Virus record (IMG/VR): IMGVR_UViG_3300036886_000004
Span: 1-32,245 of that record
Direction: 5' to 3' (one strand)
Length of the DNA: 32,245 nt
From: a virus
Each line of letters starts with the position of its first letter. Position 1 is the first letter of the stretch. Below, piece by piece: positions 4,711 through 12,322 of the stretch. A model generated the notes under the pieces. That model made no database searches. It was not told the origin of the DNA and worked only from the letters and a program-made list of their open reading frames with translations. The translations under genes were made by a program, and so were the position numbers.

Positions 4711-4850
4711 TACCCACATTCACTATCCCACAAATCAAAGACATCATTCTAGGTCTCAAAGAAGAGATTCAGAGATGGGAAGCAATGCTCGTAGAGTTAG
4801 ATAGATTTAAACCACAAGAGGCCAAGAATGAAGAACAAAACCCTTCTTAA
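4707..4850 (+). CDS. Small helical hypothetical protein (47 aa)
   Basis: 47 codons from ATG 4707 overlapping the endonuclease stop as ATGA. The sequence is predicted helical with regular charged spacing (IKDIILGLKEEIQRWEAML). It overlaps the next small gene by 23 bases. No homolog is recognised; it is supported by the overlap pattern and the absence of another explanation for this stretch. Confidence 0.5.
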   Translation: MIPTFTIPQIKDIILGLKEEIQRWEAMLVELDRFKPQEAKNEEQNPS

Positions 4851-4971
4851 GTTACTACAAAGAGAGAAAGAATATTGGATTCAGATCATTGAGTACCAAG
4901 AGAAATACCTTGATAGGTTATATGACCAACTCAGCACTATCGTAGAAGAACTGGAAGTCTTAGATGAGTAG
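4828..4971 (+). CDS. Small coiled-coil-like protein (47 aa)
   Basis: 47 codons from ATG 4828, with GAGG upstream. It is leucine- and glutamate-rich throughout (LLKLLQREKEYWIQ...LYDQLSTIVEELEVL), consistent with one long helix or coiled coil. It is nested by overlap between two neighbours, 23 bases upstream and 8 bases downstream. The function is unknown. Confidence 0.5.
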   Translation: MKNKTLLKLLQREKEYWIQIIEYQEKYLDRLYDQLSTIVEELEVLDE

Positions 4972-5227
4972 ATGCCACGAAGTATATCACCCAGATGCCA
5001 CTGAAGAAATGATTCAGAATTACTCTGATGAAAACACTACAGACAGTTACGGCACTGTTTTACCCGGATGGCGTCGGTTCCGGATCGAGTACGGTTTTGA
5101 GTGTTCTTGTCCGGAAGGTACTGTGTATATAAAGGACGGCCCTGATATTTATGACAGATTAGACAAGATCTTAGAGCTAATAGGTGATCCAGTGCAGTAT
5201 GTAACTTTATTAGAGGATGGTTCATAA
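4964..5227 (+). CDS. Hypothetical protein
   Basis: 87 residues with a CSCP cysteine pair in the centre (FECSCPEGTVYI) and an acidic C-terminus. No domain is recognised. Its last codons matter for the next gene: AGAGG at 5212-5216 and the stop TAA (5225-5227) form the ribosome-binding and reinitiation site of the DNA polymerase. Coupled translation of the two is likely. Confidence 0.65.
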   Translation: MSRCHEVYHPDATEEMIQNYSDENTTDSYGTVLPGWRRFRIEYGFECSCPEGTVYIKDGPDIYDRLDKILELIGDPVQYVTLLEDGS

Positions 5228-7068
5228 TTAAATACCTTACAGTAGAAGATCCGAATAAGTTCTTTTATATAGACATAGAAACAGACGGACTTGATCCAAC
5301 TCTGATCTGGTGTTGTGTCATTAAATGTAAAGGAACAAAACAGGTCTTAAGATTTACTAACCCTTCGGGCGCAGACCCGACCATGTACCATGAGCTAAGG
5401 AAGTTCTTTGAAGACAATCACTCGGCTGTATACTGTGGTCATAATGCTCTTAGTTTCGATTCTGTTTACTTGGCCAATTTTACTGGGTATGATCTTAAAT
5501 TATCTTCCGTTGTGGATACGTTGGTTCTTTCATATCTTTACAATCCTGCTCTCGAAGGTGGTCACTCATTAGAAAGTTATGGACAAAGGTTGAAGTTTTC
5601 TAAGGGCGACTTCTCGGACTGGAGTAAGTATAGTCCTGAGATGCTAGAATATTGTGAACGTGACGTAGAATTATTAGAAAAGGTACACGATGCTTTATTA
5701 AGTAAGATGAATCGAATAGGCTTTTCAGAATTATCATGTGAAATAGAACACAACATTAGGGTTATAATTGATCAACAACAGCGTAACGGCTTTTGGTTCG
5801 ATCAAGTCAAGGCCGAGGAACTCTTATGTACACTTAATACTAAATTAGAAGAACTCCTCAGACCTATCCAGGAACTCTTTCCGCCTAGGTTAGAGCCTTT
5901 GAAAACCTATCCCCGGAGGTTCAAGAAGGACGGCTCTGATTATAATAGTTACCTTAGACATACAGAAACTTGTGATGCCATACAGGATAACGATGACGGG
6001 ACTTATACGACTTTTGAACTCCGTCCATTTAACATCCGAAGCAGTAAGCAACGCCTAGAAAGACTCCTAGAACTCGGCTACGAACCTACAGCCAAGACAC
6101 CTAACGGCAATCCAAAGATTGATGAAGACTCTTTATTAGCCTATGCCGACCTGTCCGGGAAGCCTGAGATACGACTAATGGCTGAGTACCTTGTAACGGT
6201 AGGCCAAGCCGGTATGGTAGAGACATGGCTAAAGGCCACTGGAACTGACCACAGGATACACGGCAAGGTTCTCTCATGTGGGGCTACTACCCGTAGAATG
6301 ATCCACAAGGCTCCTAACACGGCCAATATTCCCAGTGGGGCTAAGGCCCGTTACGGCCATGAATGCCGCTCCCTGTGGTCTGTAGAGCCAAATAAGGGCC
6401 TTTGCTTAGTAGGTGTAGATGCTGCTGGTCTAGAGACTGTTGGGTTATGTCATTACCTGGGTAATCCGAAGGCCACTGAGATCCTTCTCCAGGTCAAGCC
6501 TAATGATATCCACAGCATGAACTCCCGTGCCCTCACAGAGGCCCTACAACGGCCTGTAGACAGGGAATGGGGGGCTAAGACCAGTTGGTATGCGTGGCTG
6601 TACGGAGCCTACCCACCGAAGTTAGGGAGCATTGTCAAGGGTCCACCCAGCGATGGGGATATAGTAATTAAGACATTCTTTAAGAACGTACCAGGATTGA
6701 AAGGATTAATAAATGATGTACAGGCAGAATGGTCCGGAAGAAACGGACTTCTTAGGTGTATTGACGGCGGTTTTGTTAGGTGCGGTAGTATTAATGCTGC
6801 TCTTAACTATAAAATACAATCACTAGGCGCTATAGTTATGAAGCTGGCAGCTATCCTCTTAGACCAGAAAGCCAGAGCAGAAGGATTGTGGTTCCGGTTT
6901 GTAGGGAATATCCACGATGAATTCCAGATGGAGACGAAGGACAGTGACGGTATCAGGTTAGGGGAGTTGGCTGTCTCGTGCATCACAGAGGCCGCTAAAC
7001 AATTAAAGTTCAAAGAAACACTCCTCGGAAGCTATAAAATCGGACAGAATTGGAGTCAAACTCATTGA
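5227..7068 (+). CDS. T7-like family A DNA polymerase with 3'-5' exonuclease; probable AUU start
   Basis: About 613 residues. Exonuclease motifs: Exo I YIDIETDGL (D16, E18), Exo II GHNALSFD (about 71-78), Exo III YCERD (about 141-145). Polymerase motifs: A GVDAAGLETVG (about 396), B AKTSWYAWLYGA (about 449-460), C NIHDEF with the catalytic HDE near 563. It is shorter than T7 gp5 (704). The first ATG in frame (5383) would delete Exo I, and the frame upstream to the stop at 5185 contains no ATG, GTG or TTG. The best start is ATT 5227, overlapping the previous TAA as TAATT, ten bases after AGAGG; ATA 5224 is the alternative. With the nearby primase-helicase and SSB it forms the replisome. Confidence 0.93.
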   Translation: MKYLTVEDPNKFFYIDIETDGLDPTLIWCCVIKCKGTKQVLRFTNPSGADPTMYHELRKFFEDNHSAVYCGHNALSFDSVYLANFTGYDLKLSSVVDTLVLSYLYNPALEGGHSLESYGQRLKFSKGDFSDWSKYSPEMLEYCERDVELLEKVHDALLSKMNRIGFSELSCEIEHNIRVIIDQQQRNGFWFDQVKAEELLCTLNTKLEELLRPIQELFPPRLEPLKTYPRRFKKDGSDYNSYLRHTETCDAIQDNDDGTYTTFELRPFNIRSSKQRLERLLELGYEPTAKTPNGNPKIDEDSLLAYADLSGKPEIRLMAEYLVTVGQAGMVETWLKATGTDHRIHGKVLSCGATTRRMIHKAPNTANIPSGAKARYGHECRSLWSVEPNKGLCLVGVDAAGLETVGLCHYLGNPKATEILLQVKPNDIHSMNSRALTEALQRPVDREWGAKTSWYAWLYGAYPPKLGSIVKGPPSDGDIVIKTFFKNVPGLKGLINDVQAEWSGRNGLLRCIDGGFVRCGSINAALNYKIQSLGAIVMKLAAILLDQKARAEGLWFRFVGNIHDEFQMETKDSDGIRLGELAVSCITEAAKQLKFKETLLGSYKIGQNWSQTH

Positions 7069-8485: not shown

Positions 8486-8950
8486 ATGATGATTTCAGGT
8501 AAAGCATATTGGTTCAAGGCCCAAGGAAGTCCGAAAGCAAATCGCTTTAATCCAGACATCCCGCAGTGGACGTTTGACCTAGCAGTGGATGACGAGAATG
8601 CCCAGAAGCTTCTAGAGTTGGGTATGAAGAAGACGTACCTTCGTAACAAAGATGACGAGCGTGGAACATTTATCTCCTTTGCCCGTGATGCAGTTAAGAA
8701 GGATAAGTCTCCTGGTAAGCCGTTTAATATCGTAGATGCTCAAGGTAAGCCTTGGGATAATACAAAGAATGTAGGTAATGGTAGTGAGTTGAACGTCGTC
8801 GTCTCCTTGAATGAGCGGACGTTTCGTGGGGATACCTTCCTCAAGCCGAGCGCAGTTGCCATCCAGGTTTGGAATCTGGTGAAATATGACTCCGGCGCAT
8901 TCCCGACAAAGGCTGCTGAGCCAGAACAAGAAGGGGAAACAGAGTGGTAA
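8486..8950 (+). CDS. Single-stranded DNA-binding protein, T7 gp2.5-like in role
   Basis: 154 residues (ATG 8486, with a second ATG at 8489). The N-terminal segment (SGKAYWFKAQGSPKA) and β-rich core (TFDLAV..., LNVVVSLNERTF, AVAIQVWNLV) fit an OB-fold phage SSB. The C-terminal tail is acidic and ends with an aromatic residue (EPEQEGETEW), the signature tail by which T7 gp2.5 contacts polymerase and helicase. It is driven directly by the strong promoter just upstream, as expected for a protein needed in stoichiometric amounts. Assignment rests on tail, size and context rather than a diagnostic catalytic motif. Confidence 0.8.
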   Translation: MMISGKAYWFKAQGSPKANRFNPDIPQWTFDLAVDDENAQKLLELGMKKTYLRNKDDERGTFISFARDAVKKDKSPGKPFNIVDAQGKPWDNTKNVGNGSELNVVVSLNERTFRGDTFLKPSAVAIQVWNLVKYDSGAFPTKAAEPEQEGETEW

Positions 8951-9153
8951 CAACTGATCGTCTTCCGAAGGAACAACCAACATTAGCGTATATCCGTGAC
9001 TCTGTTCGACGTGGTTCTTATACTGGTGATTTGTTCGATGCTTTAGAATTCCTTCTATCTGAGTATGATACTGTGTATAGTAAGTTAAAGTTATATACTA
9101 AACCTGTTGAGTATTCTGTTCACTCAGGTCCATATAAAGGAGATGTAGTCTAA
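8944..9153 (+). CDS. Hypothetical protein (69 aa)
   Basis: 69 residues from GTG 8944, overlapping the SSB end, with AAGGGG upstream. It contains a helical segment (GDLFDALEFLLSEYDTVYSKLKL). No domain is recognised. Its last codons carry AAAGGAGAT (9136-9144), the Shine-Dalgarno for the following nuclease, and its TAA overlaps the proposed ATT start of that gene. Confidence 0.6.
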   Translation: MVTTDRLPKEQPTLAYIRDSVRRGSYTGDLFDALEFLLSEYDTVYSKLKLYTKPVEYSVHSGPYKGDVV

Positions 9154-10025
9154 TTAACTTTGATACACTGCTGGCCGATATAGAAACTGTCTTTAAAGGC
9201 AAGGATTTAACACAACGTATTCACCATTTGACATCTAAGTTAGGCGATACCTTTGTAGACAGGTTTAATGAGTATACAAAGGAACGTAAAGCAACTCTTC
9301 GGTTAAGTAACGTTGGTCGTCCGAACCGTCAGTTGTGGTATGAACTTCATGGATATCCATTTACACCATTGAGCAGTACTGCGAAGTTCAAATTCCTCTT
9401 CGGATCAATTCTTGAAGAACTAGTTCTGTTTCTTGCAATGGAAGCCGGACACTCTGTAACAGATCAACAAGGCACAGTAGAATTAGATGGTGTCACTGGT
9501 CATATTGATGCAGTGATAGACGGAGAAGTCCTTGTTGATGTCAAGAGTTGCTCAACTAGATCCTTTGAGAAGTTTGAAAGAGGTACGTTATTCTCAGATG
9601 ATCCGTTTGGGTATGTTGGTCAGTTAACAGGGTATACTAAAGCTAAGGGGTTAAAGAGAGCAGCGTTCATTGCGATTGATAAGACGTTGGGTAAGATTTG
9701 TGTCTTAGAGCTTCCACAAGAAGTAATGGATAAGTATAATATCAGTAAGCGTATTACTGAAGTCAATAGTATGCTTAAGTCTGATACACCTCCAGAACGT
9801 TGTTATGAGCCTAAGAGTATAAGTAAAACTGACAAGTCAGGGAATCTTATTTTGTCAGTTGGGTGCAGTTACTGCAACTGGAAAGAAGAGTGTTGGAAGG
9901 ATAGCAATGACGGGAGAGGATTACAAGCAAGACATTACTCAAGTGGTGTCAAACTGTTCACGAAGATAGTAAAAGAACCACGTTTGAAGTACGAAGAATT
10001 TGAACCTTTTCAGGTGCGAGAATGA
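9153..10025 (+). CDS. PD-(D/E)XK exonuclease with C-terminal cysteine cluster; probable AUU start
   Basis: About 290 residues. The core reads GHIDAVIDG...VLVDVKSCS, the D...(D/E)xK active site of the λ-exonuclease/Cas4-like nuclease superfamily, followed by a QLTGYTKAKG helix. The C-terminal cysteines (RCYEP, GCSYCNWKEECW) resemble the Fe-S-linked cysteines of Cas4/AddB-type nucleases. In T7-like phages this slot holds the 5'-3' exonuclease that degrades host DNA and removes primers. Coding character continues upstream of the first TTG (9228) as NFDTLLADIETVFKG, and a strong AAGGAG lies ten bases before ATT 9153, which overlaps the preceding stop as TAATT. No ATG or GTG is available in that region. 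Confidence 0.85.
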   Translation: MNFDTLLADIETVFKGKDLTQRIHHLTSKLGDTFVDRFNEYTKERKATLRLSNVGRPNRQLWYELHGYPFTPLSSTAKFKFLFGSILEELVLFLAMEAGHSVTDQQGTVELDGVTGHIDAVIDGEVLVDVKSCSTRSFEKFERGTLFSDDPFGYVGQLTGYTKAKGLKRAAFIAIDKTLGKICVLELPQEVMDKYNISKRITEVNSMLKSDTPPERCYEPKSISKTDKSGNLILSVGCSYCNWKEECWKDSNDGRGLQARHYSSGVKLFTKIVKEPRLKYEEFEPFQVRE

Positions 10026-11135: not shown

Positions 11136-11543
11136 ATTACTGCAATTATTTATGACGGTAAAACTATAGCTGCTGACCGGCGTATGACTCGTGATGATCG
11201 CATATCAGGAGAAATGAAAAAAATTCATAAGTGGTCTGATGGTTATTGGGCCGCAGCAGGACGCCTAGATGATGCTTGTGAATTTGCTGATTGGTTAGAA
11301 GACAGAACGTATAAGTTTAAACCTCATACAGGATTTCAGGCTGTTTATTCAGAAAGTGGACGTGTGTATGAAATTCTAAGAAGTCTTATTCCGATGCCTG
11401 CTCTTGCCCCTCTTGGTATTGGTTCGGCAGGAACTGATTGCGAGTTATTAGTCCGGTTAGGTTACACAGGAAAAGAAGCTATTGAGGCAGTTAAGAAAGT
11501 CCATCCTACAGTAGGTGGCAAAATAGACGTGGTAACGATTTGA
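11136..11543 (+). CDS. Ntn-hydrolase (HslV/proteasome-like) protein; probable AUU start
   Basis: About 135 residues. The N-terminus ITAIIYDGKTIAADRR matches the start of HslV/proteasome-β-like phage proteins, where threonine at position 2 becomes the catalytic N-terminal nucleophile after methionine removal. Further blocks are ISGEMKKIHKW, GYWAAAGRLDDA and a C-terminal GIGSAGTDCELL. Starting at ATT 11136, with AAGG six bases upstream, places Thr exactly at position 2. The only standard alternative, ATG 11112, would add eight residues and bury it, with a poor ribosome site. The family is common in phages with unknown substrate, so protease activity is an inference. It lies two bases after the preceding stop. 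Confidence 0.7.
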   Translation: MTAIIYDGKTIAADRRMTRDDRISGEMKKIHKWSDGYWAAAGRLDDACEFADWLEDRTYKFKPHTGFQAVYSESGRVYEILRSLIPMPALAPLGIGSAGTDCELLVRLGYTGKEAIEAVKKVHPTVGGKIDVVTI

Positions 11544-12322
11544 GCAGTCCTAGAATTGCTTTTATTGACATTGAGACTTCACCTTTACTTGGCTATGCTT
11601 GGGCTTGTTATGACACGAATATCCTAGGAGTTGTCCAACCTGTCTCTGTGTTATGCATGGGCTGGAAGTGGCTGGGTGATAAAAAGGTCAACATTCGTTC
11701 ACAACCTGATTATACTAGTTATAAGCCTGGAACAGTTGATGACAAAGATCTTGTAACTGATTTATGGAAAGTCTTAGATGAAGCGGACGTTCTTATCGCT
11801 CATAATGGTGATGCATTTGACCTTAAGATTTTGAATGCTCGATTTGTTGCCAATGGGTTGAATGCTCCATCTGCTTATAAAACAGTAGACACTTTGAAGG
11901 TCGCAAAGAAATATTTTAAGTTCAACAACAACTCTCTGAATGAACTGGGCCAGTATCTACAAGAAGGTAAGAAAGCTCCGACTGGTGGGTTTGAGACATG
12001 GACTAAGTGTATGGCCGGAGATAAAGAAGCCTGGAACAGGATGACTAAATACAACATCCAAGACGTAGAGCTTCTTGAGCGTGTCTATCTGCGTCTCAGA
12101 CCATTCATGGAGGCCCATCCGAATCTTAACACCATAGCACCACCTAAAACTAAGACAACAGAATTTGCATGTCAGACTTGTCAATCAACTAATACAACTA
12201 AGAGAGGCTTTGCCGTAACCAAGATGGGACGATATCAACGCTTTCAGTGCAATTCCTGTGGGTCCTGGAGTTCTGGGTCATATGAGCGTGGTAGTCGTTC
12301 TAATGTAGGGTATGAAGAATGA
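11540..12322 (+). CDS. DEDD-type 3'-5' exonuclease (RNase H-like) with C-terminal zinc ribbon
   Basis: 260 residues from TTG 11540, overlapping the previous stop as TTGA. The exonuclease motifs are FIDIET (residues 8-13), LIAHNGDAFD (about 87-96) and a late YNIQDVELL for the third acidic site, giving a DEDDy-type active site. A C-terminal four-cysteine ribbon (CQTCQS...CNSCGSW, about residues 213-236) is fused on. It resembles stand-alone RNase_H_2/YprB-like exonucleases. In addition to the polymerase's own proofreading domain, it may process DNA or RNA ends; the ribbon could guide it to nucleic acid. Confidence 0.82.
   Translation: MSSPRIAFIDIETSPLLGYAWACYDTNILGVVQPVSVLCMGWKWLGDKKVNIRSQPDYTSYKPGTVDDKDLVTDLWKVLDEADVLIAHNGDAFDLKILNARFVANGLNAPSAYKTVDTLKVAKKYFKFNNNSLNELGQYLQEGKKAPTGGFETWTKCMAGDKEAWNRMTKYNIQDVELLERVYLRLRPFMEAHPNLNTIAPPKTKTTEFACQTCQSTNTTKRGFAVTKMGRYQRFQCNSCGSWSSGSYERGSRSNVGYEE

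Follow-up and report, generated by a model that had tools for sequence, protein, structure and literature searches.

Bacterial genes that begin at near-cognate codons amount to a handful of regulated cases, and AUU is, to our knowledge, almost never used as a bacterial start codon. The Escherichia coli pcnB gene begins at an AUU that is limited by IF3, and OrfB of the mobile element IS911 has an AUU start within an overlap. IF3 normally keeps near-cognate starts in check; it limits the AUU start of E. coli infC and represses the GTC start of Streptomyces sigR (PMC5472188). One survey counted a single change to AUU among 61,358 ancestral AUG starts (PMC5622118). For standard starts, re-initiation at stop/start overlaps of the ATGA and TGATG types is well established (PMC6728339, PMC2268962); non-AUG re-initiation was shown only with mutant initiator tRNAs in one of these studies (PMC2268962).

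The locus described here, a polymerase gene within a viral DNA stretch of 32,245 nucleotides (the window), resembles each of these systems in part. As in infC and pcnB, AUU appears to be the natural start of an essential or regulated gene preceded by a Shine-Dalgarno (SD) sequence. Those two, however, are single regulated host genes, whereas in the phage clade of the window AUU, AUA, AUC and CUG seem to recur over the replication genes, with the codon varying between relatives. The likeness to sigR would be that of a non-standard start codon setting a protein ratio in an operon, but sigR is a single gene with a GTC start that was demonstrated experimentally. IS911 OrfB differs in being one gene tied to a programmed frameshift. 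The geometry and the SD are those of ATGA and TGATG overlaps, except that the overlapping start in the phage clade is ATT, ATA, ATC or CTG. A homologous polymerase and replication module are found in T7-like phages (gp5) and in the marine podoviruses HTVC103P, HTVC115P and SIO1, yet ten T7-like and marine reference phages, unlike the window clade, have no convincing near-cognate start. Single near-cognate genes are already known, and in the open-access literature we came across no phage clade described as using such starts repeatedly.

Results

The polymerase gene and its start region

The window encodes a family A DNA polymerase whose reading frame matches DNA_pol_A (PF00476; 6e-29) and DNA_pol_A_exo1 (PF01612; 4e-6) in Pfam, PHROG_17 (4e-95) and T7 DNA polymerase (8e-37). 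Because it specifies a 613-aa family A polymerase with Pfam and PHROG_17 matches, the ORF is not a chance one. The palm and 3'-5' exonuclease motifs of a T7 gp5-like enzyme are present, including exonuclease motifs DIE, HNxxxFD, YCxxDV and HDE. The features of the gene and its surroundings are as follows.

4964-5227, plus strand: upstream 87-aa gene; its TAA at 5225-5227 overlaps the polymerase start
5212-5216, plus strand: SD-like AGAGG, 10 nt before ATT 5227
5224-5226, plus strand: alternative near-cognate start ATA; ATG or GTG here in L113-L116, L025/L137 and L108/L109
5227-5229, plus strand: proposed AUU start codon, its A common to the upstream TAA (TAATT)
5227-7068, plus strand: family A DNA polymerase containing a 3'-5' exonuclease domain; 613 codons when read from ATT 5227
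5266-5292, plus strand: exonuclease motif I, YIDIETDGL, 5' of the first in-frame ATG
5383-5385, plus strand: first in-frame ATG of the polymerase, too far 3' for a complete exonuclease domain

In the polymerase frame (codon starts = 1 mod 3), a TGA stop at 5185-5187 is followed by TCC AGT GCA GTA TGT AAC TTT ATT AGA GGA TGG TTC ATA(5224) ATT(5227) AAA TAC CTT. As a first-pass annotation of this DNA had reported, no ATG, GTG or TTG occurs in this frame from the stop to ATG 5383, and motif I, encoded from TAT ATA GAC ATA GAA, precedes that ATG; its placing of AGAGG ten bases before an ATT whose A is shared with the preceding TAA also proved accurate. The gene thus has no AUG, GUG or UUG 5' of its conserved coding sequence, an SD at workable spacing and, at 5225-5229, the overlap of stop and start that characterizes coupled genes. 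The 16 nt upstream of ATT 5227 form an SD duplex of -8.9 kcal/mol. The SD lies 7 nt from ATA 5224, a more usual spacing than the 10 nt of ATT 5227. Two details are additional to that annotation: a further in-frame ATT is found at 5209, and an out-of-frame ATG at 5217, just after the SD, opens a 4-codon frame, ATG GTT CAT AAT TAA (5217-5231).

Motif A of the polymerase reads DAAGLETV, with the arginine of the usual ELR replaced by V, and motif B is R-x4-K, not R-x3-K. These deviations look like lineage divergence rather than decay, because the closest relative departs at identical places. The window also carries a second, DnaQ-like exonuclease at 11540-12322 with a TTG start (PHROG_403, DNA polymerase exonuclease subunit), although the polymerase has an exonuclease domain of its own.

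Comparison of the polymerase start with relatives

The closest relative, found by a primase scan, is IMG/VR contig 3300050821_000159 (L105; full contig L190/G001), which is identical to the window at about 76-78% in the primase, 56% in the polymerase and about 76% in the protein encoded upstream of it. A search of viral contig and phage collections for a close second copy of the window virus yielded one relative only. The L105 polymerase begins at TTG (CATAATTGAAATATTTA) with a TAA of the polymerase frame directly before it, and the corresponding window sequence (CATAATTAAATACC) is one base off a standard start. The polymerase of L026 is like that of L105, with TTG at the codon equivalent to 5227, and reading the window from ATT 5227 gives the N-terminus KYLxVEDPN, the same as in L105. 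An alignment of relatives, which the first-pass annotation had proposed as a check, extends this picture: beyond the TTG of the nearest relative, more distant ones have TTG, GTG, CTG or ATG at 5227, or ATG or GTG at 5224. Conservation of AUU among orthologs, expected of an AUU-specific switch, was not found in this alignment, TTG, GTG, CTG or ATG standing there instead.

Between the window and L105, polymerase codons 2-52 have a pN of 0.28 and a pS of 0.74, as compared to 0.31 and 0.73 in the remainder. Purifying selection acts on these codons as it does elsewhere in the gene; they are therefore translated, which sets the gene start 5' of ATG 5383. The nearest orthologs, the SD, the TAATT overlap and a second window gene of like design support AUU 5227, the start originally put forward, as the best polymerase start. 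The alternative offered with it, ATA 5224, is weaker: it retains the backing of the ATG or GTG found there in distant relatives, but an in-frame TAA occupies that codon in the closest relative.

Several peculiarities of the relatives were observed in passing. In L105/L190, the polymerase C-terminus occurs again in incomplete form at 4752-4967, 3' of the intact polymerase, with 39% identity to that of the window. A few codons past its start, the L190 ortholog of the 87-aa gene carries an in-frame TAA (2236-2250) in place of the GAA of the window. In L132, L133 and L144 (3001-5439), the polymerase match stretches over about 2.4 kb rather than 1.8 kb, which suggests that the gene contains an insertion, for example an intron, an intein or a homing endonuclease.

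A second putative AUU gene in the window

Gene-by-gene comparison with orthologs identified another window gene that has no standard start, a Cas4-domain exonuclease matching PHROG_1990, with the following features.

8944-9153, plus strand: gene upstream of the Cas4-like exonuclease, GTG start; its TAA at 9151-9153 overlaps ATT 9153
9136-9142, plus strand: SD sequence AAAGGAG, 10 nt before ATT 9153
9153-10025, plus strand: Cas4-domain exonuclease, with a proposed ATT start at 9153-9155 in a TAATT overlap; the ortholog has ATG at the same codon

The start region reads AAAGGAGATGTAGTCTAATT in the window and AAAGGTGATGTAGTTTAATG in the L105 ortholog. The first standard in-frame start of the gene, TTG 9228, falls within the conserved region, and no in-frame ATA accompanies ATT 9153. 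Among the TAATT sites of the window from which a frame of 60 codons or more opens, 5225-5229 and 9151-9155 are the only ones located at the stop of a preceding ORF that is 20 codons or longer; the geometry expected of coupling is therefore present at both genes. Here, too, an out-of-frame ATG follows the SD (ATG TAG, 9143-9148), and the ATGTAG is kept in the relative.

Near-cognate starts across the clade

An alignment-based scan gave about 25 further relatives with polymerase identities of 39-48%, several of them contigs of 47-50 kb. An ortholog-based start test was applied to 14 clade contigs and to ten reference phages (T7, K1F, gh-1, K11, HTVC103P, HTVC115P, SIO1, ICBM1, CRP-403 and CRP-143); it is stricter than, and supersedes, a first unrestricted survey whose 231 flags were mostly shadow ORFs. 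A standard start was lacking in 23 of 494 testable genes of the clade, as compared to 4 of 253 in the reference phages. Roughly five of the 23 were dropped as fragments, short HNH-like ORFs or ambiguous cases. About 18 hold up with varying certainty and, together with a G002 amidotransferase found by direct comparison, make up a final list of 19 cases curated by eye. Inspection of the four reference flags left no credible near-cognate start in the ten phages: SIO1 PhoH has a frame break and is given in the record as a misc_feature only, and each of the other three is an ORF, short or overlapping, in which a standard start follows after a few codons. The candidate near-cognate starts are listed by gene.

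DNA polymerase: ATT in the window, CTG in G008
Cas4-like exonuclease: ATT in the window, ATC in G003 and G007, ATA in G002 and G004, CTG in G010
Class II glutamine amidotransferase: ATT in G002 and G003
Ribonucleotide reductase: ATT in G003, ATT in G005 (small subunit)
Thymidylate synthase: CTG in G008
Resolvase-like endonuclease: ATA in G004
Phosphoesterase: ATT in G004
PHROG_5033/dATP-pyrophosphohydrolase-like gene: ATT in G004
Primase: ATT in G002 and G006, ATA in G003

In this clade of uncultured podoviruses, AUU, AUA, AUC and CUG thus appear to start from about 1 in 30 to at least about 4% of conserved genes, mostly replication genes, a clade-wide feature that the first-pass annotation did not include. 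In the two amidotransferases, ATT stands directly before a Cys codon, where orthologs have ATG, GTG or TTG followed by TGC or TGT (MCGLVG). Less weight attaches to the primase cases: there the region specifies the C-terminus of the upstream protein as well, which makes the N-terminal conservation ambiguous. An SD motif is mostly present and is weak in three or four of the 19 cases. Contigs of four metagenome sets (L120, L122, L123 and L139) share one and the same CTG polymerase start, and those of four sets (L113-L116) share the Cas4 ATC start. Since some identical starts recur in independent assemblies, assembly error is unlikely to account for the near-cognate class as a whole.

Position and frame of the near-cognate codons

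In genes that have no standard start near the conserved N-terminus, we counted ATT, ATC, ATA and CTG triplets lying 5-10 nt behind an SD core. Because related genomes are counted, the p-values are guides only: in the clade, such triplets occurred in frame in 23 of 71 cases and out of frame in 10 of 143 (p=3.6e-6), or in 20 of 65 and 9 of 131 when the primase is left out (p=2.3e-5). For ATT alone, the counts in the clade were 10 in frame and 0 out of frame. The signal was weaker in more distant IMG/VR relatives (5/35 vs 0/70, p=0.003), and none was seen in the control phages.

Among testable genes, 69% could use ATG in the clade (those with at least two orthologs), 83% in distant relatives and 87% in the controls. 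Weak starts were over-represented at the polymerase: among 26 distinct clade polymerases whose upstream frame is complete, ATG is usable in 9, only GTG or TTG in 15 and neither in 2, and the 9/26 compares with 69% clade-wide (p=4e-4, with the same caution). The near-cognate starts were also concentrated near the polymerase and on its strand, in the replication and nucleotide module (15/192 vs 1/199; p=1.7e-4, again a guide). At 14 of the 19, the start lies at the stop of the upstream gene, between -2 and +16; the enrichment of this arrangement over standard starts (121/248) is borderline (p=0.055, read likewise).

Discussion

The comparisons point to coupled initiation at AUU 5227, and to AUU, AUA, AUC and CUG as recurrent starts of the replication genes of the clade, a reading that we consider probable. 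Host ribosomes would translate the polymerase mRNA from AUU 5227, using initiator fMet-tRNA. The particle placed over UAAUU would be either a ribosome that has finished the 87-aa gene at UAA 5225-5227 or a 30S subunit bound to AGAGG 5212-5216, and initiation at this overlap would give fMet-KYLTVEDPNKFFYIDIETDGL. The Cas4-like exonuclease would likewise be started at AUU 9153, and the near-cognate starts of the clade would act mostly at overlaps with an upstream stop, in genes of replication and nucleotide metabolism. We infer that initiation employs fMet, that the coupling is a re-initiation and that the weak starts either hold replication proteins low or are merely tolerated. An AUU-specific switch is disfavoured and a weak-start regime favoured, because the start codon turns over among relatives (ATT/TTG/CTG/GTG/ATG).

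Other accounts of the polymerase start are less persuasive. Initiation at AUA 5224 rather than AUU 5227 would benefit from the 7-nt SD spacing, from the standard codons that several relatives have at that position and from the apparent use of AUA by other clade genes. It is nonetheless unlikely, for in the closest relative this codon is TAA and the polymerase begins at 5227, and the Cas4 gene of the window has its ATT in the same TAATT geometry with no adjacent in-frame ATA. Less probable again is an assembly or sequencing error in a virus whose real start is TTG or ATG. The window is a single assembly of the virus, and its polymerase codon is one base from the TTG of the relative or from a TAATG overlap; an identical geometry in a second window gene, the recurrence of near-cognate starts in other contigs, some of them identical across four metagenome sets, and the otherwise intact state of the orthologous genes in the window all argue against an error.

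Two further explanations were considered and rejected. Were a -1 frameshift ahead of 5225 to join the upstream protein to the polymerase, no start codon would be needed, and at both window genes the downstream frame is indeed -1 with respect to the upstream one. Against such a fusion, which we regard as very improbable, no classical slippery heptamer lies near 5188-5225, an in-frame TAA immediately precedes both the L105 polymerase start and the CTG of the G010 Cas4 gene, and the SD spacing and the enzymes with N-terminal Cys favour initiation. The least credible account has the polymerase starting at ATG 5383, its first standard in-frame start, with the upstream part untranslated or degenerate: exonuclease motif I would be lost, orthologs align across the region upstream, and codons 2-52 carry the purifying selection described above.

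Beyond coupled initiation at AUU 5227 itself, start-codon discrimination may conceivably be relaxed during infection, as a host trait or by a phage factor that acts on IF3 or the ribosome, such that AUU, AUA, AUC and CUG would be ordinary replication-gene starts; we hold this broader idea to be rather doubtful. The suggestion of the first-pass annotation that the AUU start could tune polymerase dose through IF3 is speculative; AUU itself varies among the orthologs, although weak polymerase starts as a class persist. A phage-encoded IF3 was sought in the clade phages and was not found, nor was a phage initiator tRNA, the only tRNAs being those for Leu, Tyr and Thr in a few contigs. A scan of genome contigs for polymerase relatives and an exact tRNA-Tyr search did not identify a host.

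If the proposed starts are real, start-codon choice can relax as a group trait, with the near-cognates nearly all in the replication module, and the phage clade would provide a natural setting in which to study how initiation fidelity depends on coupling and IF3. Gene callers restricted to ATG, GTG and TTG would shorten or miss replication genes in these phages. Possible near-cognate starts were also observed beyond the core clade, at the polymerase of L146 (2995-4833; CTG or ATC) and at a Cas4-like exonuclease of L129 (about 2495; ATC).
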